Virus record (IMG/VR): IMGVR_UViG_3300023273_000521
Location: 1-56,627 of that record
Reading direction: 5' to 3' (one strand)
Origin: a virus
Length of the DNA stretch: 56,627 bases
Of this stretch, positions 4,725 through 46,672 are shown one piece after another. Made by a program: the position numbers and the translations under genes. The notes under the pieces are model-generated. The model saw only the letters and a program-made list of their open reading frames with translations. It was not told where the DNA came from and did not search any database. How positions within the stretch are numbered: position 1 is the first letter of the stretch; the number at the start of each line of letters is the position of its first letter.

Positions 4725-6257
4725 ATGATACCAAATATATTATGGCAAACTTGGAAAACTAAAACTTTACCAACTTTACTTAAAAAACAATCAGAGTCTT
4801 GGAACTATAGTAATCCTCAACTTAAAAAAGAGTTTATGGATGATCAGCAATGTTCTGATTTTATTTTAAATCATTTTGGCCAAGACGTTCATTTAAAATA
4901 TCATCAACTTCCTCAACCGATTAATCGTGCTGATTTTTGGAGATTAGCTGTTGTTTATATACATGGTGGTTATTATTCAGATTTAGATATCACTTGTAAA
5001 ATGAATTTAAATTATTTTATCAAATCAGGTGTGGATGCTGTTTTTATACGAGAAATTAATAACATAGGTAATTATTTTTTTGGTGCCGTACCTAAACATC
5101 CTGTTATCAAAATGGCCATTGATCGTATGTTATCAGAAACAGGTAATATTAATAAAAAAGAATCACAATCGTGGGGAATGCACGGCCTACACCAATCTGT
5201 ACGAGATTATTATAAAGTCATAGGCACAAATTATATTCCTAATGATGAAGTTGATTTTATATTAGATAGTAAAGTCAGACAAGATAAATATATTATACAT
5301 ACTATGGCTAGTTTAGATGATCAAAAAGATTATGAATCATGGAGAAAAAGAGAAAAGTTAATGATAGAAGAAAGACAACAATCAAACGATATTTTATTTT
5401 TTACAACATTTAATAAAAATGGTTATGACCTTTATGGTAAAACATGGGTAGATAGTTTTACTAAAGTTGCTAATTATTATAATAAATTTAGAGCAAAAAT
5501 ATACTACGAAGGTTTTACTCCAAAACAAAATCATTCTAATATACAATGGGTTGATTTTAAAAAAGAAATACCTCAGCATGAACAATGGAAAAAAGAATAC
5601 TTAGAAAAAAACAAGCACACTGATTATGTAAAAACAATGTGTGTTCGTTTTAGTCATAAAGGATTTGTTATACAAGACGTATTAGACAAACATAACAATA
5701 ATTATCTTATATGGTTGGATGGTGATTGTGTATATCAAAATGAGAATTTTACGGAATTTCCTAAAAACATTTTACAAGACAAATTTATGGCTTGTCAATT
5801 AGAACACGCACAGGACTTAAATCATGTGGAAAGTGGTATATTAATATTTGATGGCAATCACCCTAATACAAAGATATTTAATAAACACTTTAAAGAAAAT
5901 TATAAAATAGATAATGTTATAAAAATGAGTGAACCTTATGATGGTTTTATTGTTTCAAAATCTCTTATTACATCTAAATTAGATTATTTTAATTTAAATG
6001 AGAATTTTGGTAAAGGTGGTATTCAATCTGATCCATCTTTAACATTTTTACATCCAGAAATTAAAAAAAGATTTGTGCATAATATAGGTTGGACAGGTAA
6101 AAATCAATATAAAGGATTTGAATTAATTAAAAGCAGAGATGACATTTTAACTAAACTTGAAAACACACTTTTTGGCAATAAAAAAGAAAAACAAGAAAAA
6201 CGAAAAAGACTTTTTAATAAACTTGAAAAATTAAGACGATTAAAATCAAAAAGTTAA
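4725..6257 (+). CDS. Two-domain glycosyltransferase (GT32-like plus second GT-A-like domain)
   Basis: This 510-residue protein has two parts. Residues 1-200 resemble the GT32/OCH1 family: an IPNILWQTWKT start, INRADFWRLAVVYIHGGYYSDLDI with the metal-binding DxD at 86-88, and a following sugar-binding region. From ~220 a second segment (ILFFTTFNKNGYDLYGKTWVDSF) runs to a WLDGDC motif near 331, followed by HVESGILIFDGNHPN, which resembles another nucleotide-sugar transferase domain. The C-terminus is a Lys/Arg-rich helix. It opens the island of sugar genes. The substrate is unknown; targets could be phage fibres or host surface glycan. The first domain is fairly sure, the second less so. Confidence 0.75.
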   Translation: MIPNILWQTWKTKTLPTLLKKQSESWNYSNPQLKKEFMDDQQCSDFILNHFGQDVHLKYHQLPQPINRADFWRLAVVYIHGGYYSDLDITCKMNLNYFIKSGVDAVFIREINNIGNYFFGAVPKHPVIKMAIDRMLSETGNINKKESQSWGMHGLHQSVRDYYKVIGTNYIPNDEVDFILDSKVRQDKYIIHTMASLDDQKDYESWRKREKLMIEERQQSNDILFFTTFNKNGYDLYGKTWVDSFTKVANYYNKFRAKIYYEGFTPKQNHSNIQWVDFKKEIPQHEQWKKEYLEKNKHTDYVKTMCVRFSHKGFVIQDVLDKHNNNYLIWLDGDCVYQNENFTEFPKNILQDKFMACQLEHAQDLNHVESGILIFDGNHPNTKIFNKHFKENYKIDNVIKMSEPYDGFIVSKSLITSKLDYFNLNENFGKGGIQSDPSLTFLHPEIKKRFVHNIGWTGKNQYKGFELIKSRDDILTKLENTLFGNKKEKQEKRKRLFNKLEKLRRLKSKS

Positions 6258-7734: not shown

Positions 7735-8519
7735 AACCCTCATTAAATTTATATATGTTCACTAATCTCACTAATATTATAAGAGAAAAACAAACAATAT
7801 TTGAAACATTTAATTCATTTAGAAATACTTTTAGTGAATATTCTGATATTAGGCCAACTTGTGTTTATATTGACAGGTATCCTTTAAATGACAATAAAGT
7901 GTTAAAGGAATATACATCAAAAATAAAAGAATATATAAACCCTTATAATATAAAAATAATGAATAGTTACTATGATGCGTTTGTAGATGCTGTTGAGAGT
8001 TCAAATTCTATGTTTAATTTTATGTTAGAACATGACTTCATTTTTTTTAAAGATAGAATTCAACACAATTTACATACCTGTATGAAACAAATGATATATG
8101 ATAATATACATCACTTACGATTTAATGTACAATCTAATTTTAAAAATTTTGATCAACGAATAGAAAAATATAATTGTTACCAAGAAGTTAAAGGTAAGTT
8201 TTTAAATTACTGTACTACTAAAAATCCATCTAATCAACCAAATTTAATTAGGCTTGATATATATAGAAAAGATATGCTTCCTATATTAAAAAAATATTCT
8301 GGTAAAAAAATTAATACATGGGGTACAGAAGACCATTATTATTATAGTGATATGAGTCATACAGTATTGGCTGTATATGGTGATAAAAATTGTTTGGAAA
8401 CTATTGGACATACTGAAGGACGATTTCTTAATGTAGAACTAAAAGATAAAGTAAATGGGTTTGAGGATAGTTTTTACATGACTGAAGAATATTTTAATTA
8501 TTTAAAAACTAAAAATTAA
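7731..8519 (+). CDS. Probable glycosyltransferase-like protein of the glycan island
   Basis: This 262-residue protein has no single decisive motif. It shows an N-terminal alternating strand/helix pattern (LNLYMFTNLTNIIREK; PTCVYIDRYPLNDNKVL) and the segment NFMLEHDFIFFKDRIQ, where EHD is placed like the acidic metal motif of GT-A transferases. A conserved-looking NTWGTEDHYYYSDM follows later. Its position, coupled by 4 nt to the FkbM methyltransferase, supports a role in the same glycan pathway. Function is inferred mainly from context. Confidence 0.55.
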   Translation: MKPSLNLYMFTNLTNIIREKQTIFETFNSFRNTFSEYSDIRPTCVYIDRYPLNDNKVLKEYTSKIKEYINPYNIKIMNSYYDAFVDAVESSNSMFNFMLEHDFIFFKDRIQHNLHTCMKQMIYDNIHHLRFNVQSNFKNFDQRIEKYNCYQEVKGKFLNYCTTKNPSNQPNLIRLDIYRKDMLPILKKYSGKKINTWGTEDHYYYSDMSHTVLAVYGDKNCLETIGHTEGRFLNVELKDKVNGFEDSFYMTEEYFNYLKTKN

Positions 8520-38139: not shown

Positions 38140-38349
38140 TTGTCAATAACTATACAAGTAAGAAACGGTAATTTAGAACAGGCTATGAGAGTGCTTAAGA
38201 AAAAAGTACAAAAAGATGGCCAGTTAAAAATTTTAAAAGCAAAACAATACTATGAAAAACCGTCAGAAATAAAAAGACGTAAGAAAAAAGAAGGTATTGC
38301 TAACTTTAAAAAACAACAAAAGAAGTTAAAACAACAAAGAGGTTTTTAG
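38140..38349 (+). CDS. rpsU: Ribosomal protein bS21
   Basis: This 69-residue protein matches bS21 along its length: VRNGNLEQAMRVLKKKVQKDGQLKILKAKQYYEKPSEIKRRKKKE, including the hallmark YEKPSxxRRRKK. The start is a TTG at 38140, 9 nt after AGGAGG; an ATG is not available in this frame. bS21 is the last small-subunit protein to bind, next to the 16S 3' end, and is important for initiation. bS21 genes have been reported in pelagiphages and other marine viruses. It may replace host bS21 and bias initiation toward phage mRNA; that is inference. Confidence 0.9.
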   Translation: MSITIQVRNGNLEQAMRVLKKKVQKDGQLKILKAKQYYEKPSEIKRRKKKEGIANFKKQQKKLKQQRGF

Positions 38350-40560: not shown

Positions 40561-41377
40561 TTATCTTGGTGGTAAAAAGTTTCAGGCAAAATGGATTGCC
40601 TCCAACTTTCCAAAACATAATACTTATGTTGAACCATTTGGTGGTGCCTATTGGGTTTATTTTGTGGCCAACCACCAAATAGATCAGGCTCATACAAATG
40701 TATATAATGATTTTAATAGAGATATAGCAAATATATTTCATTGTGCCAGACATAAAGATAGAGAATTTTTAAAATCTTTATTGTCATATGAACCACAACA
40801 AGAAGAAATTTTTAATCAATTTAAATCAGATTTAATACCATTTAATACAGACTTTGAACTAGGTGATATTGAAAGAGCCACAAAATATATCTACCTACAA
40901 ACTCAAAGTTTTAGTGGTGATACTCTAAATGAAAAAACAAAGTTTGTAAATTTAAAAGGTAAATATAAATCAAAGTATCAACATTTTATAGATAAAATTA
41001 GTGATAAAAAATGGTTATATTTTATTAAAGGCATAAATCATATTCATAACGAATCATATGAAACAGTTATTAATATGTATGATAAAGAAGATACATTATT
41101 TTATGTTGATCCTCCATACTATAAAATGGAAGATTACTATGTAAAAGACTTTCAAAGAAGCCAGCACGAAGACCTGGCCAATAAACTAAAAGAAATAAAA
41201 GGTAAATTTGTATTGTCTTATTATGACTTTCCAGATTTACAAAAGTGGTTTCCAAAAGATCAATACACTTGGATAGAAAAAGAATTTAATAAACAAAACG
41301 CTAGTAAAAACAAAGGCGCTGGTAAAGGTAAAGAAGTATTAATTATGAATTATAAACCAGCATTGACTTTAGAATAG
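40553..41377 (+). CDS. dam: DNA adenine-N6 methyltransferase, Dam/D12 class
   Basis: The GTG start at 40553 lies inside the upstream gene. The 274-residue enzyme has the D12 order: FSYLGGKKFQAKWI and YVEPFGGAYWVYF (SAM site), YNDFNRDIANIF, then the catalytic FYVDPPYYKMEDYY. The typical late segment ...KGKEVLIMNYKP closes it. The family methylates GATC-like sites. The tight overlap with a DUF262-type protein suggests a restriction-modification or self-protection pair. The target site cannot be read from sequence. Confidence 0.9.
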   Translation: MFSYLGGKKFQAKWIASNFPKHNTYVEPFGGAYWVYFVANHQIDQAHTNVYNDFNRDIANIFHCARHKDREFLKSLLSYEPQQEEIFNQFKSDLIPFNTDFELGDIERATKYIYLQTQSFSGDTLNEKTKFVNLKGKYKSKYQHFIDKISDKKWLYFIKGINHIHNESYETVINMYDKEDTLFYVDPPYYKMEDYYVKDFQRSQHEDLANKLKEIKGKFVLSYYDFPDLQKWFPKDQYTWIEKEFNKQNASKNKGAGKGKEVLIMNYKPALTLE

Positions 41378-41391
41378 CTTTGTGATATATT
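41363..41391 (+). promoter_or_regulatory. Sigma70 promoter of tRNA-Gly(UCC)
   Basis: TTGACT (41363-41368), 17 nt, TATATT (41386-41391) with TGTGA before it. The -35 lies in the last codons of the methyltransferase gene. The expected start is at the 5' end of the tRNA (41399), leaving almost no 5' leader. Confidence 0.8.
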
Positions 41392-41398
41392 AAATAAT

Positions 41399-41472
41399 GC
41401 GGATGTCGTATAAAAGTAATACACTTGGTTTCCAACCAGGAAAAGATTGGGCAGTACAGTCCATCCGCTCCA
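41399..41472 (+). tRNA. tRNA-Gly (anticodon UCC) with atypical D- and T-loops
   Basis: The 74-nt cloverleaf is complete: acceptor GCGGATG/CATCCGC, discriminator T, encoded CCA (41470-41472). D-arm is GTAT-AAAAGTA-ATAC; anticodon arm is CTTGG-TTTCCAA-CCAGG with UCC at 41431-41433. Four variable bases follow, then T-arm GATTG-GGCAGTA-CAGTC. Acceptor start and discriminator U fit bacterial tRNA-Gly. The T-loop GGCAGTA replaces the normal TTCGANN, and the D-loop lacks the second G of GG. So the usual D-/T-loop contact is missing. It has its own promoter directly upstream. Confidence 0.85.
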
Positions 41473-41494
41473 AAATTTGAACGAGGAGTAAATA

Positions 41495-42037
41495 ATGTTT
41501 GATAAATTTGTAATACCAAAAACTAATTTTAAAATAAGAGAAGGCGATTCTGTATTAGAAGATGGCTGTAACTTTGATGAGGGTAAGTGGGTAGAAAAAT
41601 CTACAGACGACTTTTTTAAAGGCAAAAGAGTTGTATTGTTTTCTCTACCTGGTGCTTTTACACCAACTTGTACATCTACTCAATTACCAGGCTTTGATGA
41701 AAACTATGAAAAAATTAAAAGTCTTGGAATAGATGAAATCTATTGTTGTTCAGTAAATGATACATTTGTTATGAACGCTTGGGCAGAAATTTTAAAAATC
41801 AAAAATGTAAAAGTAATTCCTGATGGATCTGGTAATTTTACTAGATTTATGGGAATGTTAATTGGAAAAAATCATAAAGGCTTTGGTAATAGAAGTTGGA
41901 GATATATGGCAGTTATTAACGATGGAGTTGTTGAAAAGTGGTGGCAAGAACCAGGTATCAATAATGACGGATCAGATAATGACCCATACGTTGAAACTAC
42001 ACCAGAGAATATGATAAGTTATTTGAAATCAAAATAA
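41495..42037 (+). CDS. Peroxiredoxin (Prx5/AhpE-like)
   Basis: This 180-residue protein has the peroxiredoxin active site LFSLPGAFTPTCTSTQLPGF, with the peroxidatic Cys in PTCT, and the Prx5-type segments YCCSVNDTFVMNAWAEI and IPDGSGNFTRFMGML. It reduces hydrogen or alkyl peroxides using a thiol donor. It starts 22 nt after the tRNA with GAGGAG. A phage copy could protect the infected cell from oxidative stress, which is plausible in sunlit sea water. Marked homology to Prx5-type; donor unknown. Confidence 0.92.
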   Translation: MFDKFVIPKTNFKIREGDSVLEDGCNFDEGKWVEKSTDDFFKGKRVVLFSLPGAFTPTCTSTQLPGFDENYEKIKSLGIDEIYCCSVNDTFVMNAWAEILKIKNVKVIPDGSGNFTRFMGMLIGKNHKGFGNRSWRYMAVINDGVVEKWWQEPGINNDGSDNDPYVETTPENMISYLKSK

Positions 42038-42039
42038 CA

Positions 42040-42068
42040 TTGACAAAAAAACTATACTATGTTATATT
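42040..42068 (+). promoter_or_regulatory. Sigma70 promoter of gp45
   Basis: TTGACA (42040-42045), 17 nt, TATATT (42063-42068) with extended TGT. The gp45 start follows 31 nt later after an AAGGAG site, so unlike others this mRNA has a leader. Confidence 0.83.
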
Positions 42069-42098
42069 ATAATATGTTAAATTATGAAGGAGTGATAT

Positions 42099-42764
42099 AT
42101 GAATCTATCAAGTGATACGGTTTCTGTATTAAAAAACTTTTCAGACATTAATCAAAATATATTGGTTAAACCTGGAAACAAAGTACAGACAATCTCTACA
42201 ATGAAAAATATTTTAGCAGAAGCTGAAATATCAGAAAAGTTTGAAAGCGAATTTGCTATCTATGATCTACCAGAATTTTTGAGATCAGTAGAACTTTTTG
42301 AAAAACCAGAACTAAAGTTTAATGGTGGATCAAATGTTCAGATTGCTGATTCTAATTCTAAACAGGCAATAAAATATTTCTTTGCTGACAAATCAGTTAT
42401 TGTTTCGCCTACAAAGAATATTACAATGCCAGATAAAGAAGTTACTTTTACATTTAAAAAAGAAACCTTTTCTAAATTACTAAAAGCAGCTACTACATTA
42501 AATTTACCAGATGTTGCCGTTAAAGGTGATGGTAAATCAATTAAATTAATTGCTACAGATAAGAAAAACAAATCTTCAAATGATTATTCTATTGAAGTTG
42601 GTGAGACCGATAAAACATTTACGGCCTATTTTAAAACTGAAAACTTTAAAATGGTTTCAGATGATTATGATGTAGCAATATCTAAACAAAAGATAAGTCA
42701 TTTTGTAAACAGAAATAAACCTATACAATATTGGATAGCATTAGAACCAGATTCGGAGTTTTAA
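42099..42764 (+). CDS. gp45: DNA polymerase sliding clamp gp45
   Basis: This 221-residue protein (T4: 228) begins LSSDTVSVLKNFSDINQNILVKPGNKVQTIS and has the clamp pattern LPEFLRSVELFEKPELKF, then YFFADKSVIVSPTKNITMPDKEVTFTF. It forms the trimeric ring that tethers gp43 to DNA and activates late transcription with gp55. It is followed after 1 nt by a small unknown gene, then gp44. Confidence 0.95.
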   Translation: MNLSSDTVSVLKNFSDINQNILVKPGNKVQTISTMKNILAEAEISEKFESEFAIYDLPEFLRSVELFEKPELKFNGGSNVQIADSNSKQAIKYFFADKSVIVSPTKNITMPDKEVTFTFKKETFSKLLKAATTLNLPDVAVKGDGKSIKLIATDKKNKSSNDYSIEVGETDKTFTAYFKTENFKMVSDDYDVAISKQKISHFVNRNKPIQYWIALEPDSEF

Positions 42765-42765
42765 T

Positions 42766-43113
42766 ATGTCTGAAGTCTATAAATTAGAAGACGGTACCGA
42801 ATACAAAGCAGACGACTACTTAAAAGTAGAAACCAGAGAATATCATCAAACAACACATTATCTTAATAGACAAATTGCTGTTTCTGATATTATAGAGGAG
42901 TTTGGCGATTTGCCTACCTTTGAAAAAGGTTTATACTTTAATTGGAACGACTATCATAAAGCTTCACAAGAAGACAAAGACTTGGCAGATAAAGTACAAG
43001 AATTTGTTGATGAACACGATTATGACCGTGAAGAAGATTGTTGGACAATGAATAAAGGTGGTTATGATGTTGATAGTGAAATTGTAAAAGAATTTACAAT
43101 GGAAACACCCTAA
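42766..43113 (+). CDS. Small acidic unknown protein between gp45 and gp44
   Basis: This 115-residue protein is very acidic (YKLEDGTEYKADDYLKVETREYH, then DKVQEFVDEHDYDREEDCW). I do not recognise a family. It starts 1 nt after the gp45 stop, so it is probably co-translated. Its acidic character and placement between clamp and clamp-loader genes suggest a protein partner or DNA mimic, but this cannot be shown. Confidence 0.6.
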   Translation: MSEVYKLEDGTEYKADDYLKVETREYHQTTHYLNRQIAVSDIIEEFGDLPTFEKGLYFNWNDYHKASQEDKDLADKVQEFVDEHDYDREEDCWTMNKGGYDVDSEIVKEFTMETP

Positions 43114-43138
43114 TAATGAATAAAGTGAGGTTTATATT

Positions 43139-44083
43139 ATGTCAGATTTTTTGTGGGTTGAAAAATACCGTCCAAAAAAGATAAGCGATTGTATTCTTAC
43201 CGAAGATTTAAAGAATACATTTACACAATTTCTAAAACAAAAAGAAATACCTAACCTATTGTTGTCTGGTACTGCCGGTACTGGTAAAACAACAGTAGCA
43301 AGAGCCTTATGTGAAGAACTAGGTAGTGATTATATCATTATTAATGGTTCAGACGAAGGCCGTCAAATAGATACATTAAGAAATAAGATTAAAAACTTTG
43401 CTTCTACTGTATCTCTTACCGAAGACGCTAATCATAAAGTTGTCATAATTGATGAGGCAGATTATATGAACGCTGATAGTGTTCAGCCTGCTTTAAGAAA
43501 CTTTATAGAAACATTTTACAATAATTGTAGATTTATATTTACTTGTAATTATGTCAATAAGATAATACCAGCATTACATAGTCGTTGTACTGTCATTGAT
43601 TTTGCCATAAAAAATGGTCAAAAGGTAAAGACGGCTACTGCCTTTATGAAACGATTAGGTGGTATACTTGATGATGAGAATATAGAATATGACAAAAAAG
43701 TATTGTCAGAATTAATACAAAAGTATTATCCAGACTTTAGAAGAACTATCAACGAACTACAAAGATATTCAGTTAGAGGTAAGATTGATAGTGGTATTCT
43801 TTTTAGTCTATCAGAAGCTAATACCAAAGAACTCATAGTATCATTAAAAGAAAAAAGATTTAATGATATGAGAAAATGGGTTGTTCAGAACTTGGACAAA
43901 GAGGCCTCTTTTCTATTTAAAACTATCTATGATGTTCTCTATACAGCACTAGACTCTAAATCTATTCCTCAATCTATATTAATTTTGGCTGGGTATCAAT
44001 ATAAATCTGCCTTTGTTGCTGACCAGGAGATAAATATGGTTGCCTGCCTTACAGAAATAATGGCGAGTTGTAAATTTAAATAA
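43139..44083 (+). CDS. gp44: Clamp loader large subunit gp44
   Basis: This 314-residue AAA+ protein (T4: 319) starts WVEKYRPKKISDCIL. It has Walker A SGTAGTGKTTVAR, Walker B VVIIDEADYM, sensor 1 FIFTCNYVNKIIPALHSRC with the SRC arginine finger, and a C-terminal helical collar. Four copies join gp62 to load the gp45 clamp. A basic small gene and a tRNA lie between it and gp62, an unusual arrangement. Confidence 0.96.
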   Translation: MSDFLWVEKYRPKKISDCILTEDLKNTFTQFLKQKEIPNLLLSGTAGTGKTTVARALCEELGSDYIIINGSDEGRQIDTLRNKIKNFASTVSLTEDANHKVVIIDEADYMNADSVQPALRNFIETFYNNCRFIFTCNYVNKIIPALHSRCTVIDFAIKNGQKVKTATAFMKRLGGILDDENIEYDKKVLSELIQKYYPDFRRTINELQRYSVRGKIDSGILFSLSEANTKELIVSLKEKRFNDMRKWVVQNLDKEASFLFKTIYDVLYTALDSKSIPQSILILAGYQYKSAFVADQEINMVACLTEIMASCKFK

Positions 44084-44092
44084 GAGATTAGA

Positions 44093-44230
44093 ATGGCTAG
44101 AAGAACATTTTTTAGAAAATTAATAGTAAAATTAAGAATATGGTATGCTGATATACGAGGACATCACGGTAAAAGATGGGATTATGAACCTGGTGATTGG
44201 TATATGGGTAGACACAATAAAAGAAAGTAA
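44093..44230 (+). CDS. Small basic protein (45 aa) between gp44 and tRNA-Gly
   Basis: An ATG at 44093 opens a frame with about 30% basic and aromatic residues (MARRTFFRKLIVKLRIWYAD, then IRGHHGKRWDYEPGDWYMGR). It has no strong ribosome site (AAGAGATTAGA). It fits exactly between gp44 and the tRNA. An RNA- or DNA-binding role is conceivable, but unproven. Confidence 0.5.
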   Translation: MARRTFFRKLIVKLRIWYADIRGHHGKRWDYEPGDWYMGRHNKRK

Positions 44231-44238
44231 AACCATAA

Positions 44239-44312
44239 GCGGATATGGTATAGAAGTATTACGCCACGTTGCCAACGTGGAGATGGCGGAGCGTTACCGC
44301 CTATCCGCTCCA
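44239..44312 (+). tRNA. tRNA-Gly (anticodon GCC) with atypical D- and T-loops
   Basis: The 74-nt cloverleaf is complete: acceptor GCGGATA/TATCCGC, discriminator T, encoded CCA (44310-44312). D-arm is GTAT-AGAAGTA-TTAC (three pairs plus a T-T); anticodon arm is CCACG-TTGCCAA-CGTGG with GCC at 44271-44273. Four variable bases follow, then T-arm GGCGG-AGCGTTA-CCGCC. The T-loop AGCGTTA again lacks TTCGA, and the D-loop lacks GG. It sits 8 nt before the gp62 start and has no separate promoter, so it must be cut out of the clamp-loader mRNA. Confidence 0.85.
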
Positions 44313-44320
44313 GAATTATT

Positions 44321-44713
44321 ATGTACGAATTGAAAGATTACTTAAACGCTATAAACTTTACTAAAGAAAATCTATTAGATACAGACGATTTAACGTGGGA
44401 AAAGAAGTATCCACCGTTTATCATTAACAAGTGTTTATCAATGCATTATGACAGTATAGCAGCTGCCAATGAAATGAATGGTTATCACTTTTTAGATAAG
44501 AAAGTCCAGTTTCATTTTTTGATAAATAGTATTAGAAAAAAGAAGCGATTTGGTGGCAAATGGTTATCACAAGCCAAATTGAAGAATTTAGAGTATGTCA
44601 AAGAATATTATGGATATAGTAATGAGAAAGCAAAACAAGCACTTAGCATACTAAAAGACGAACAAATTGAATTTATAAAAGAGACCTTGAACAAAGGTGG
44701 GAGAAAAAAATGA
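44321..44713 (+). CDS. gp62: Clamp loader small subunit gp62
   Basis: This 130-residue protein (T4: 187) follows gp44 in T4 order and has the gp62 pattern YELKDYLNAINFTKENLLD, PPFIINKCLSMHYDSIAAANEMN and FLINSIRKKKRFGGKWL. One copy joins four gp44 in the loader. It has no ribosome site because its ATG lies 8 nt after the tRNA 3' end; processing of that tRNA would leave an almost leaderless mRNA. Shorter than T4 gp62. Confidence 0.9.
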   Translation: MYELKDYLNAINFTKENLLDTDDLTWEKKYPPFIINKCLSMHYDSIAAANEMNGYHFLDKKVQFHFLINSIRKKKRFGGKWLSQAKLKNLEYVKEYYGYSNEKAKQALSILKDEQIEFIKETLNKGGRKK

Positions 44714-45171
44714 GCGAAGAAATTGTAAACTGGTCGCCTGAAAGTATGTTAGAGGTCACAATCAAACAACCAGACGACTTCCTTAAAGTTAGAGAAACAT
44801 TAACTAGAATTGGTGTAGCGTCCCGAAAAGACAAAACACTTTATCAATCGTGTCACATTTTACATAAACAAGGTAAATACTTTATAACACACTTTAAAGA
44901 ACTATTTGCTTTAGACGGTAAAAAGGCTACATTGGTTGAAAACGATATACAAAGAAGAAATACTATTGCTATTCTTTTACAGGATTGGAATTTAATTGAC
45001 ATTGTAAAACCAGCAAAAGCTGAAAACAAAGCACCATTAAGTCAAATCAAAGTATTACCTTTTAAAGAAAAAAAAGAATGGACGCTATCAGCTAAATATA
45101 ATATTGGTAAAAAAATTGATGAGAATAAGGAAGAAGTAAAAGATAGCGACAATGCAAGTACCGAAGTTTAA
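44710..45171 (+). CDS. regA: Translational repressor RegA
   Basis: This 153-residue protein (T4: 122) matches RegA closely: MLEVTIKQPDDFLKVRETLTRIGVASRKDKTLYQSCHILHKQGKYFITHFKELF, then LLQDWNLIDIV and FKEKKEWTLSAKYNIGKKI. RegA binds start regions of early mRNAs, including clamp-loader genes, and lowers their translation. It lies directly after gp62 as in T4. The C-terminus has an extra acidic tail (EEVKDSDNASTEV). Confidence 0.96.
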   Translation: MSEEIVNWSPESMLEVTIKQPDDFLKVRETLTRIGVASRKDKTLYQSCHILHKQGKYFITHFKELFALDGKKATLVENDIQRRNTIAILLQDWNLIDIVKPAKAENKAPLSQIKVLPFKEKKEWTLSAKYNIGKKIDENKEEVKDSDNASTEV

Positions 45172-46672
45172 AGATTTTATTACTGAGCAAAATATAGAAC
45201 GTAAAAATAAACCGATTACGGTTGCAATTATTACGAAGTCTAATCCAAATGTTAAAAAACAAAAAGCTGGTGAAGCTCCTAAAAAAGAACTTACAGTTGG
45301 TTTAATTCAAAAGGCTTGTAAGAAAAAAGGTTTTGAGTGTGTTGTCATCAATACAAAACACGCTATCATCACTGGTAAAGACGAAGATAAGAATACTTTA
45401 ACCATTTATAATTATGATGGTAAAGATTCTGAACATACATTTATAGGTAAAGATACTGTTTGTATTACACGAGCAGGTTCTATTGAAGACGAAGCTGGAT
45501 TATCATTAATATCAGCCTTTCAAAACTCATCAGCATTTATGTTAAACACACGATCAGCTATGCTGACTTGTGATAATAAATTAACAACAGCATTACTATT
45601 TGAAAAGTTTGGTATACCTACACCAAGAACAGCGTTTGTATCAAATGAAAAAAACATAGAAGACGCTGTAAAATTAGTTGGTAATAAATTTCCTATCATA
45701 CTTAAAACATTAACTGGTACTCAAGGTATTGGTGTAATTAAAATTGAAAGTATGGATAGTTTAGTATCTACAATACAAGCATTATGGAAACACGATGCAG
45801 AAGTATTAATACAAGAATATATGGAAGTAGATGGTGATGTAAGAACTTTAGTCGTAGATAATAAGATATTTGCGTCAACAAATAGAGTTGCCGCTAAAGG
45901 TGAGTTTAGATCCAACACTCATAGAGGCGCTACACCAAAACCATATAAGTTAAGTGAAGAAGAACAAGAAATCATTTTAAAAGCCGCTAGAGCGTCCAAA
46001 GCGTACCTTGTAGGCGTAGATCATATCATTTACAAGGGTAAACCTTATGTATTAGAAATCAATGGTAGTCCAGGTTCAGGTGCCGAATATGAAGGTTATC
46101 AATATAAAGATTACTATTCAGAACCAGAACCATCAGGCGCTATCGGTGGCGAAGAATTAATGTATGATATTATAGATTGGGTATCAAAAAGAAGTCATTG
46201 GGATAGACAAGCAAATAGTGAATGTGGTTGGTTAGAAACTGTTGAACTAGATGAACTAGGAAAAGTTAGAGCAAAATTTGATACAGGAAATGGTTCACTT
46301 GCTTGTGCCTTACACGCTGATGAAATTTTAGAAGATGGTAAAATAGTTAAATGGAAATATGACGGAAAAACTCATACTAAACCAAGACACGGTACAAGTA
46401 AAGTTTATAGAGCAAATGCTGACGGTGAAGAGCCATCAGAAATTAGACCAACGATATTATTAGATATTACATTTAATGGTTTTACATATAAAGATATTGA
46501 ATTTGGTTTAGACCAAAGACCACGATCAGGCTCAGATATATTAGTTAATAGAGAATTAATGCGACAAATGAATGTAAGTGTCAACCCTAATAGAACATTT
46601 GTATTAAGTAAGAGATTAAGACCTATTGAAAAAGAAGGTAAACAAGACAAAGTGGGTTTTGAAAAGAAATAA
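45152..46672 (+). CDS. rimK: RimK-like ATP-grasp ligase fused to a retropepsin-like (zinc protease) domain
   Basis: This 506-residue protein has an N-terminal RimK-type part: PRTAFVSNEKNIEDAVKLVG, ILKTLTGTQGIGVIKIESMD (ATP-grasp loop), VLIQEYMEVDGDVRTLVVDNKIFAS and HIIYKGKPYVLEINGSPG. From ~350 a second domain has VELDELGKVRAKFDTGNGSLACALHADEI (DTG catalytic motif) and FGLDQRPRSGSDILVNRELM, as in the ATP-dependent zinc protease/RimB-type family. RimK adds Glu to the end of ribosomal protein S6 in bacteria. The fusion could write and trim such a modification. Substrate is inference. Confidence 0.88.
   Translation: MQVPKFKDFITEQNIERKNKPITVAIITKSNPNVKKQKAGEAPKKELTVGLIQKACKKKGFECVVINTKHAIITGKDEDKNTLTIYNYDGKDSEHTFIGKDTVCITRAGSIEDEAGLSLISAFQNSSAFMLNTRSAMLTCDNKLTTALLFEKFGIPTPRTAFVSNEKNIEDAVKLVGNKFPIILKTLTGTQGIGVIKIESMDSLVSTIQALWKHDAEVLIQEYMEVDGDVRTLVVDNKIFASTNRVAAKGEFRSNTHRGATPKPYKLSEEEQEIILKAARASKAYLVGVDHIIYKGKPYVLEINGSPGSGAEYEGYQYKDYYSEPEPSGAIGGEELMYDIIDWVSKRSHWDRQANSECGWLETVELDELGKVRAKFDTGNGSLACALHADEILEDGKIVKWKYDGKTHTKPRHGTSKVYRANADGEEPSEIRPTILLDITFNGFTYKDIEFGLDQRPRSGSDILVNRELMRQMNVSVNPNRTFVLSKRLRPIEKEGKQDKVGFEKK

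Follow-up and report, generated by a model that had tools for sequence, protein, structure and literature searches.

The stretch of marine viral DNA analysed here (IMG/VR record IMGVR_UViG_3300023273_000521, 56,627 nucleotides, referred to as the window) carries two tRNA-Gly genes, tRNA 1 with the anticodon UCC and tRNA 2 with the anticodon GCC, from which the G18-U55 elbow pair is absent and in which A18 and G55 are found instead. In an ordinary tRNA the D-loop contacts the T-loop through the near-universal pair G18-Psi55, which helps to hold the L shape of the molecule. Judged from the sequences, the elbow is changed by a matched pair of substitutions (G18 to A with U55 to G) and is not lost. 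As the elbow contact is replaced by a different matching base pair, the tRNAs look working rather than broken, and we consider it likely that both genes are bona fide tRNA-Gly genes used for translation during infection with a rewired A18.G55 elbow. G19-C56 on the outside of the elbow, the contact between U8 and A14 and the determinants of glycine identity are all kept. In this explanation A18 and G55 would pair in three dimensions and so replace G18-Psi55, and the swapped tRNA would be charged with glycine and would decode GGN.

The first-pass annotation of the window had reported two tRNA-Gly genes with U73, an encoded CCA and unusual D- and T-loops, and this description was borne out. Both sequences form a cloverleaf and exceed the Rfam tRNA (RF00005) cut-off of 29 bits (scores in Table 1). 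When the folds were compared with those of dinucleotide shuffles, none of 200 shuffles was as good as tRNA 1 and 3 of 200 were as good as tRNA 2. Glycine identity is given by G1-C72, C2-G71, G3-C70, U73, C35 and C36, and the complete set is present in both tRNAs. The D- and T-loops are AAAAGTA and GGCAGTA in tRNA 1 (A14, A, A, A18, G19, U, A21 and G54, G55, C56, A57, G58) and AGAAGTA and AGCGTTA in tRNA 2 (A14, G, A, A18, G19, U, A21 and A54, G55, C56, G57, U58), with A15/A48 in the former and G15/U48 in the latter. The annotation needed correction on two points. Its ‘perfect stems’ contain U13.U22 in the D stem of tRNA 2 and a U51.G63 wobble in tRNA 1, and the loss of conserved loop bases that it described is true of positions 18, 54, 55 and 58 and not of U8, A14, G19, U20, A21, C56, the purine at 57 or G53-C61, all of which are retained.

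The relationship between positions 18 and 55 was examined by scanning IMG/VR for tRNA-Gly with the acceptor ends and anticodon loop fixed and with positions 18, 19 and 54–60 left free. At least 120 stretches matched; the sample comprised the 80 loci listed, with 84 tRNA matches, all of which passed the cloverleaf threshold. These 84 had G18/U55 (67 tRNAs), A18/G55 (14) or G18/C55 (3) and no other combination. Positions 19 and 56 served as an internal control: 82 of the same tRNAs have G-C there and 2 have A-U. In the phage tRNA-Gly at L330 3212 and L348 6798 the outer elbow pair has covaried naturally, A19-U56 taking the place of G19-C56. The rule that A18 occurs if and only if G55 occurs was true for 80 of 80 non-identical tRNA-Gly among the matches listed, the best of 10,000 column shuffles, which take no account of kinship, giving 68. 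Two larger sets are enriched for swapped forms because two of the source searches targeted them: 222 unique tRNA-Gly in the loci examined (G/U 122, A/G 97, G/C 3), and 524 unique phage tRNAs with an encoded CCA from a scan blind to the T-loop (G/U 434, A/G 82, G/C 5, 3 unassigned). Loops with A18/G55 as in the window, which the first-pass annotation had proposed to seek in related phages, are present in 97 of the 222. Neither A18/U55 nor G18/G55 was found among the 524, leaving aside the 3 unassigned; in long D-loops positions 18 and 19 were assigned by a rule preferring GG, then AG, then GA. With the swapped D-arm fixed as a pattern, 52 of 52 unique cloverleafs had G55, some of these loci coming from a pattern that itself fixed G55, and 4 more stretches with this D-arm failed the cloverleaf scan and had GC at the place of 55-56. 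Since the 18/55 rule holds and all 97 unique swapped tRNA-Gly retain G19 and C56, loss of the elbow, as in elbow-less tRNAs, is not supported.

The swapped genes keep the other features of tRNA-Gly. The acceptor pairs G1-C72, C2-G71 and G3-C70 are present in 97, 96 and 97 of the 97, U73, C35C36 and U33 in all, and an encoded CCA in 88. The earlier statement that the stems of the two window genes differ yet stay paired extended to their relatives: when the 89 unique swapped tRNA-Gly whose D-loop has 7 bases were aligned, pairing was intact in 1793 of 1869 stem cells, pair 13-22 being an exception dealt with below, and the best of 300 shuffles reached 1359. Stems compensated to this degree rule out a decay product or pseudogene and, together with the conserved glycine identity, uphold the view of the annotation that the genes are not decaying. 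Other tertiary pairs vary. Positions 54/58 are G/G in 55 of the 97, U/A in 21, A/U in 9, U/U in 9 and C/A in 3, and U/A in 120 of 122 ordinary tRNA-Gly, while 15/48 is A/A in 59 of the swapped tRNAs.

Swapped and ordinary tRNA-Gly were found at one syntenic place in each of three phage groups. In the window the two genes occupy two sites, one no more than 2.5 kb upstream of the clamp loader gene gp44 (site 1) and one no more than 900 nt 3′ of it (site 2). Among 143 distinct gp44 sequences, site 2 holds a swapped tRNA-Gly in 26, an ordinary one in 8 and none in 102, and the stretch was too short in 7. On a gp44 tree of 136 rows the swapped and ordinary states at site 2 require at least two changes, allowing that the history of gp44 may differ from that of the tRNA. 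A nearly minimal pair at one locus is given by L132 (loops AGTGGTA/TTCGAAT) and L018 and L174 (AGTAGTA/TGCGAAT), whose loops differ only at 18 and 55; L132 and L018 are ~79% identical around site 2. In another group the cultured Synechococcus phage S-SSM6a has an ordinary CCA-less tRNA-Gly and the related contig L154 a swapped CCA-less one in the aligned place, L154 being the sole CCA-less swapped contig checked and S-SSM6a/S-SSM7-like. In a third, ordinary L299 and L324 align with swapped L110 and L121; L110 matches the OM43 phage Melnitz at 72.7% identity with 88% query coverage, and neither cultured Melnitz nor the record AG-345-L05 gave a match to the tRNA-Gly pattern. The swapped state is present in phage groups of several hosts, and in some contigs the gene stands beside RegA/DNA polymerase genes instead. 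The first-pass annotation had held that its interpretation would be refuted by relatives having ordinary TTCGA loops at these loci; such relatives were found at the gp44/gp62 site, and at site 1 relatives sharing at least 72% gp44 identity showed no ordinary form. In 199 cellular genomes of one phylum the swapped pattern was found in none, but the ordinary control pattern was found in only 2, probably because few tRNA genes in these genomes encode CCA. Next to the tRNA-Gly of cyanophage S-SSM6a a manA RNA motif (RF01745, 123.6 bits) was also observed (L387 3528–3728).

The swap is not confined to glycine. G55 is present in 9 of 345 unique non-Gly tRNAs of the loci examined and all nine have AG in the D-loop; they are tRNAs for His, Thr, Arg, Val and Ile and four tRNA-Met(CAT), and the tRNA-Arg, with U56, keeps the pattern only in part. 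A function of the swap specific to glycine is weakened by these nine. Unpaired 1-72 ends and A11-U24 are signs of an initiator tRNA, and the four swapped tRNA-Met (L311 3663, L323 2567, L350 2961 and L352 856) have an unpaired 1-72 (C1.A72 or A1.A72) and, in three of the four, A11-U24, as in bacterial initiators. An unannotated tRNA-Met(CAT) with loops AGTAGTA/TGCAAAT is present in the cultured Campylobacter phage CPX, and similar tRNA-Met of ordinary form were found in Caulobacter phage CcrColossus, Ochrobactrum phage POI1126 and the uncultured LR756511 (4 of 21 matching records were examined). The 195 loci that carry a swapped tRNA-Gly yielded 26 unique non-Gly tRNAs, of which 20 are ordinary (TTC with GG), as are the loops of the Thr and Ala tRNAs examined on such contigs, which weakens the idea that a host lineage without elbow modification is the sole cause. 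Two tRNA arrays, L218 1–5115 and L210 11062–12500, hold tRNAs for several amino acids with swapped or otherwise odd elbows; the former also has an ordinary tRNA-Glu and a stretch similar to phage rtcB genes.

Linked changes of tertiary pairs in working tRNAs have a precedent in tRNA-Ala of eukaryotes, whose R15/A48 and A54/A58 invariably co-occur (PMC7566577). The frequent A15/A48 of the swapped phage tRNAs is a further likeness, and the available part of that paper names no change at 18/55. Compared with ordinary tRNA-Gly of the Rfam family, the phage tRNAs share the cloverleaf, the glycine identity, the CC of the anticodon, CCA, U8-A14, G19-C56 and G53-C61, and differ in having A/G and not G/U at 18/55, with 54/58 and 15/48 often non-standard. 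Like tRNA-Pyl and type II mitochondrial tRNAs they lack the paired GG and TPsiC signatures. Those tRNAs, in the portion of PMC7609411 available, lose or replace the D/T contacts, whereas the phage tRNAs keep G19-C56 and covary at 18/55. One of the papers cited by Zhang and Ferre-D’Amare (PMC4810234, available in part) states in its title that rapid translocation depends on the 18-55 pair. A literature search, with most subscription journals outside its reach, found among the papers listed no publication on an A18/G55 elbow, on 18-55 covariation or on pelagiphage tRNA-Gly.

Several observations weigh against the explanation favoured here. The column shuffles ignore kinship, and several of the 14 swapped tRNAs of the free-loop sample, among the matches listed, are closely related and so do not represent 14 independent events; for both reasons the recurrence at syntenic loci carries more weight than the shuffle test. 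The distribution is patchy, with 29 swapped, 2 ordinary and 49 without a tRNA-Gly in the stretch examined among 80 gp44 loci, many of the stretches being short. A swapped tRNA-Gly at site 1 and an ordinary one at site 2 occur together in L126, L132, L157, L161, L165, L181 and L192, and in L081 (847–1002, minus strand) a swapped and an ordinary tRNA-Gly(UCC) are adjacent; such coexistence in single contigs argues that the swap is not strongly needed. In the D stem, 58 of 89 swapped tRNA-Gly lack pairing at 13-22 (paired in 31). The pair 51-63, which contacts EF-Tu, is U-A in 61 of 97 swapped and 13 of 122 ordinary tRNA-Gly, so that binding of EF-Tu could differ. Anticodon loops of only 5 or 6 bases are found in 3 of 90 unique swapped tRNA-Gly; such loops were seen at L114 5185, L144 6417, L191 4956 and L153 930. 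Promoter-like sequence, common before site-1 genes (below), was found at site 2 before 0 of 24 swapped and 0 of 7 ordinary tRNAs and at other places precedes few tRNAs (4 of 51 swapped and 4 of 117 ordinary ones).

Two causes of the swap were considered that are compatible with the tRNAs being functional. Selection may have favoured it because it conceals the elbow from modifying or elbow-reading enzymes. Lacking Gm18 and Psi55, usually m5U54 and mostly A58 as well, such a tRNA may do without modification by the host and may escape an elbow-reading nuclease or quality control. This cause is possible without being the one we would expect. In its favour, the class is defined by the absence of G18 and U55, 67 of the 97 have a base other than U at 54 and only 24 have A at 58, the swap is seen in phage groups that infect several hosts, and phage tRNAs escaping host defences are already known (PMC10264068 and PMC11555353, each available in part). 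The defence-evading phage tRNAs are likewise altered away from the host form, but their changes, in the available text of PMC10264068, lie in the anticodon loop and the D-loop, T-loop and elbow are not mentioned there. Against it, U54 is kept in 30 of 97, and the swapped tRNA-Gly shares its contig with an ordinary tRNA-Gly in the eight contigs named above and with ordinary Thr, Ala and other non-Gly tRNAs (20 of 26). Alternatively, selection on phage tRNAs may be weaker than on host tRNAs and a compensated double change may have been tolerated by drift without benefit. The joint variation of 54/58 and 15/48, the existence of G18/C55 (3 of 84 among the matches listed), the short anticodon loops (3 of 90) and the occurrence of both forms on one contig would suit such drift. 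The missing A18/U55 or G18/G55 intermediate, in the 84 listed matches as in the 524 tRNAs with 3 unassigned, would not, nor would the ordinary/swapped pairs in three syntenic settings or the failure to find an ordinary form at site 1 among relatives whose gp44 identity is at least 72%. Drift is possible to about the same degree as hiding of the elbow. The broader proposal that phages have repeatedly built a second elbow type, A18.G55, invisible to the enzymes that read the ordinary elbow or place Gm18, m5U54 and Psi55 in it, is tentative and rather doubtful; if true, phage tRNAs, glycine foremost and others too, would be working unmodified or surviving a host tRNA-directed defence. Being natural, recurrent and strictly covarying, the replacement allows the purpose of the elbow and of its modifications to be tested directly.

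The remaining explanations would take the tRNAs out of normal translation or derive them from the host. The first-pass annotation had suggested a staphylococcal-type glycine donor, a decoy or a regulator, the tRNA being charged but not used normally. In the tRNA-Gly that staphylococci use for the cell wall, positions 18-19 are UU or CU and the T stem has the weak EF-Tu pairs A49-U65 and A51-U63 (PMC4052509, available in part). The D-loop GG is changed in both systems; the phage tRNAs have AG at 18-19, keep G19-C56 and have other T-stem pairs, those in the window being G49-C65 with U51.G63 in tRNA 1 and G49-C65 with C51-G63 in tRNA 2. The staphylococcal pairs occur jointly in 4 of 97 unique swapped and 0 of 122 ordinary tRNA-Gly. 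A charged tRNA kept off the ribosome could be seen in the odd loops, the U-A at 51-63 in 61 of 97, the anticodon loops of 5–6 bases in 3 of 90 and a nearby gene for a RimK/glutathione-synthetase-like ATP-grasp protein (45152–46672). Given that 18/55 covaries and is not lost, that ordinary forms occupy the same loci and that a glycine donor would not explain the swap in tRNAs for six other amino acids (Met, His, Ile, Thr, Val and Arg), this origin of the loops is very unlikely. The genes might instead punctuate the replication operon, a tRNA-shaped leader setting a processing point before gp45 or gp62. Their placing agrees with this, site 1 lying before gp45 (or redoxin and gp45) and site 2 before gp62, as does the start of the site-1 tRNA about where transcription should begin. 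Glycine identity, the CC anticodon and CCA would, however, be needless for the purpose, and the gene is also found before S21 (HTVC008M), beside RegA/DNA polymerase genes or alone with a terminator-like hairpin, so that a regulatory role of this kind is improbable. It is equally hard to believe, as with the glycine donor, that SAR11 tRNA-Gly already had A18/G55 and was copied by the phages: the swap is found also in contigs resembling S-SSM6a (Synechococcus) and Melnitz (OM43) and in the tRNA-Met of a Campylobacter phage, and close relatives have ordinary forms.

A sigma-70-like promoter with at least 10 of 12 matches was found before 51 of 76 site-1 tRNAs and in ~1% of mononucleotide-shuffled upstream sequences. 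A search with a wider gap, run without the shuffle control, found one in 60 of 72 unique site-1 upstreams, and 43 of the 60 end 7–8 nt before G1. In the window the −10 element ends 7 nt 5′ of G1 of tRNA 1 (41392–41398 lying between) and the −35 element overlaps the 3′ end of a methylase open reading frame. From this spacing, transcription at site 1 probably begins on the first base of the tRNA or no more than two bases from it. As part of the second-elbow proposal above, the site-1 tRNA may also be made leaderless and so need no RNase P. In L207 and L217 a promoter-like sequence (9 and 10 of 12 matches), the tRNA and a terminator-like hairpin occur together.

Table 1. Positions of the two tRNA-Gly genes and neighbouring features in the window.
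Feature	Position	Strand	Details
Sigma-70-like promoter TTGACT-17-TATATT	41363..41391	+	10/12 consensus matches; same layout in many site-1 relatives
tRNA-Gly(UCC), site 1 (tRNA 1)	41399..41472	+	Rfam 39.3 bits; fold z −3.50; missed by ARAGORN
Redoxin/AhpC-TSA-like gene, directly 3′ of tRNA 1	41495..42037	+	Pfam PF08534
gp45-like sliding clamp gene, defines site 1	42099..42764	+	Similar to Mosig and HTVC008M sliding clamp
gp44-like clamp loader gene, defines site 2	43139..44083	+	Amino acid identity 86.6% to Mosig, 67.2% to HTVC008M
tRNA-Gly(GCC), site 2 (tRNA 2)	44239..44312	+	Rfam 51.9 bits; tRNA-Gly by ARAGORN, which detects only this one of the pair; fold z −2.26
gp62-like clamp loader subunit gene	44321..44713	+	Start codon 8 nt 3′ of tRNA 2 CCA; Pfam PF16790, 27.7 bits, cut-off 27

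The window is closely related to the cultured SAR11 myophages Mosig EXVC030M and HTVC008M (Kyanoviridae). The gene for tRNA 1 is flanked by a D12-type DNA methylase gene and the redoxin gene, with gp45 farther downstream; in many relatives gp45 and not the redoxin gene is directly 3′ of the site-1 tRNA. The gene for tRNA 2 sits between gp44 and gp62. Glycine codons in 54 chosen open reading frames of the window number 648 GGU, 202 GGC, 172 GGA and 43 GGG.

Annotation can overlook swapped tRNAs. HTVC008M is given with 0 tRNAs in Table 1 of Zaragoza-Solas et al. (PMC7029224, available in part), and its single Rfam tRNA, at 91140, is a swapped tRNA-Gly(ACC) (5009–5082 of locus L195) that is unannotated and stands directly before the S21 gene. 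In Mosig a swapped tRNA-Gly(ACC) at 7782–7852 (minus strand), before gp45, is missed by ARAGORN, gives no Rfam hit and is overlapped by an annotated hypothetical protein. The cultured pair of HTVC008M and P. ubique HTCC1062 is one in which questions on the swapped elbow can be addressed. The S21 gene of the window is at 38140–38349 (58.2 bits), and the tRNA-Gly genes of the window are located elsewhere. The ATP-grasp gene at 45152–46672 lies beside RegA, and the C-terminal part of its product has a match to a zinc protease family below the curated cut-off.

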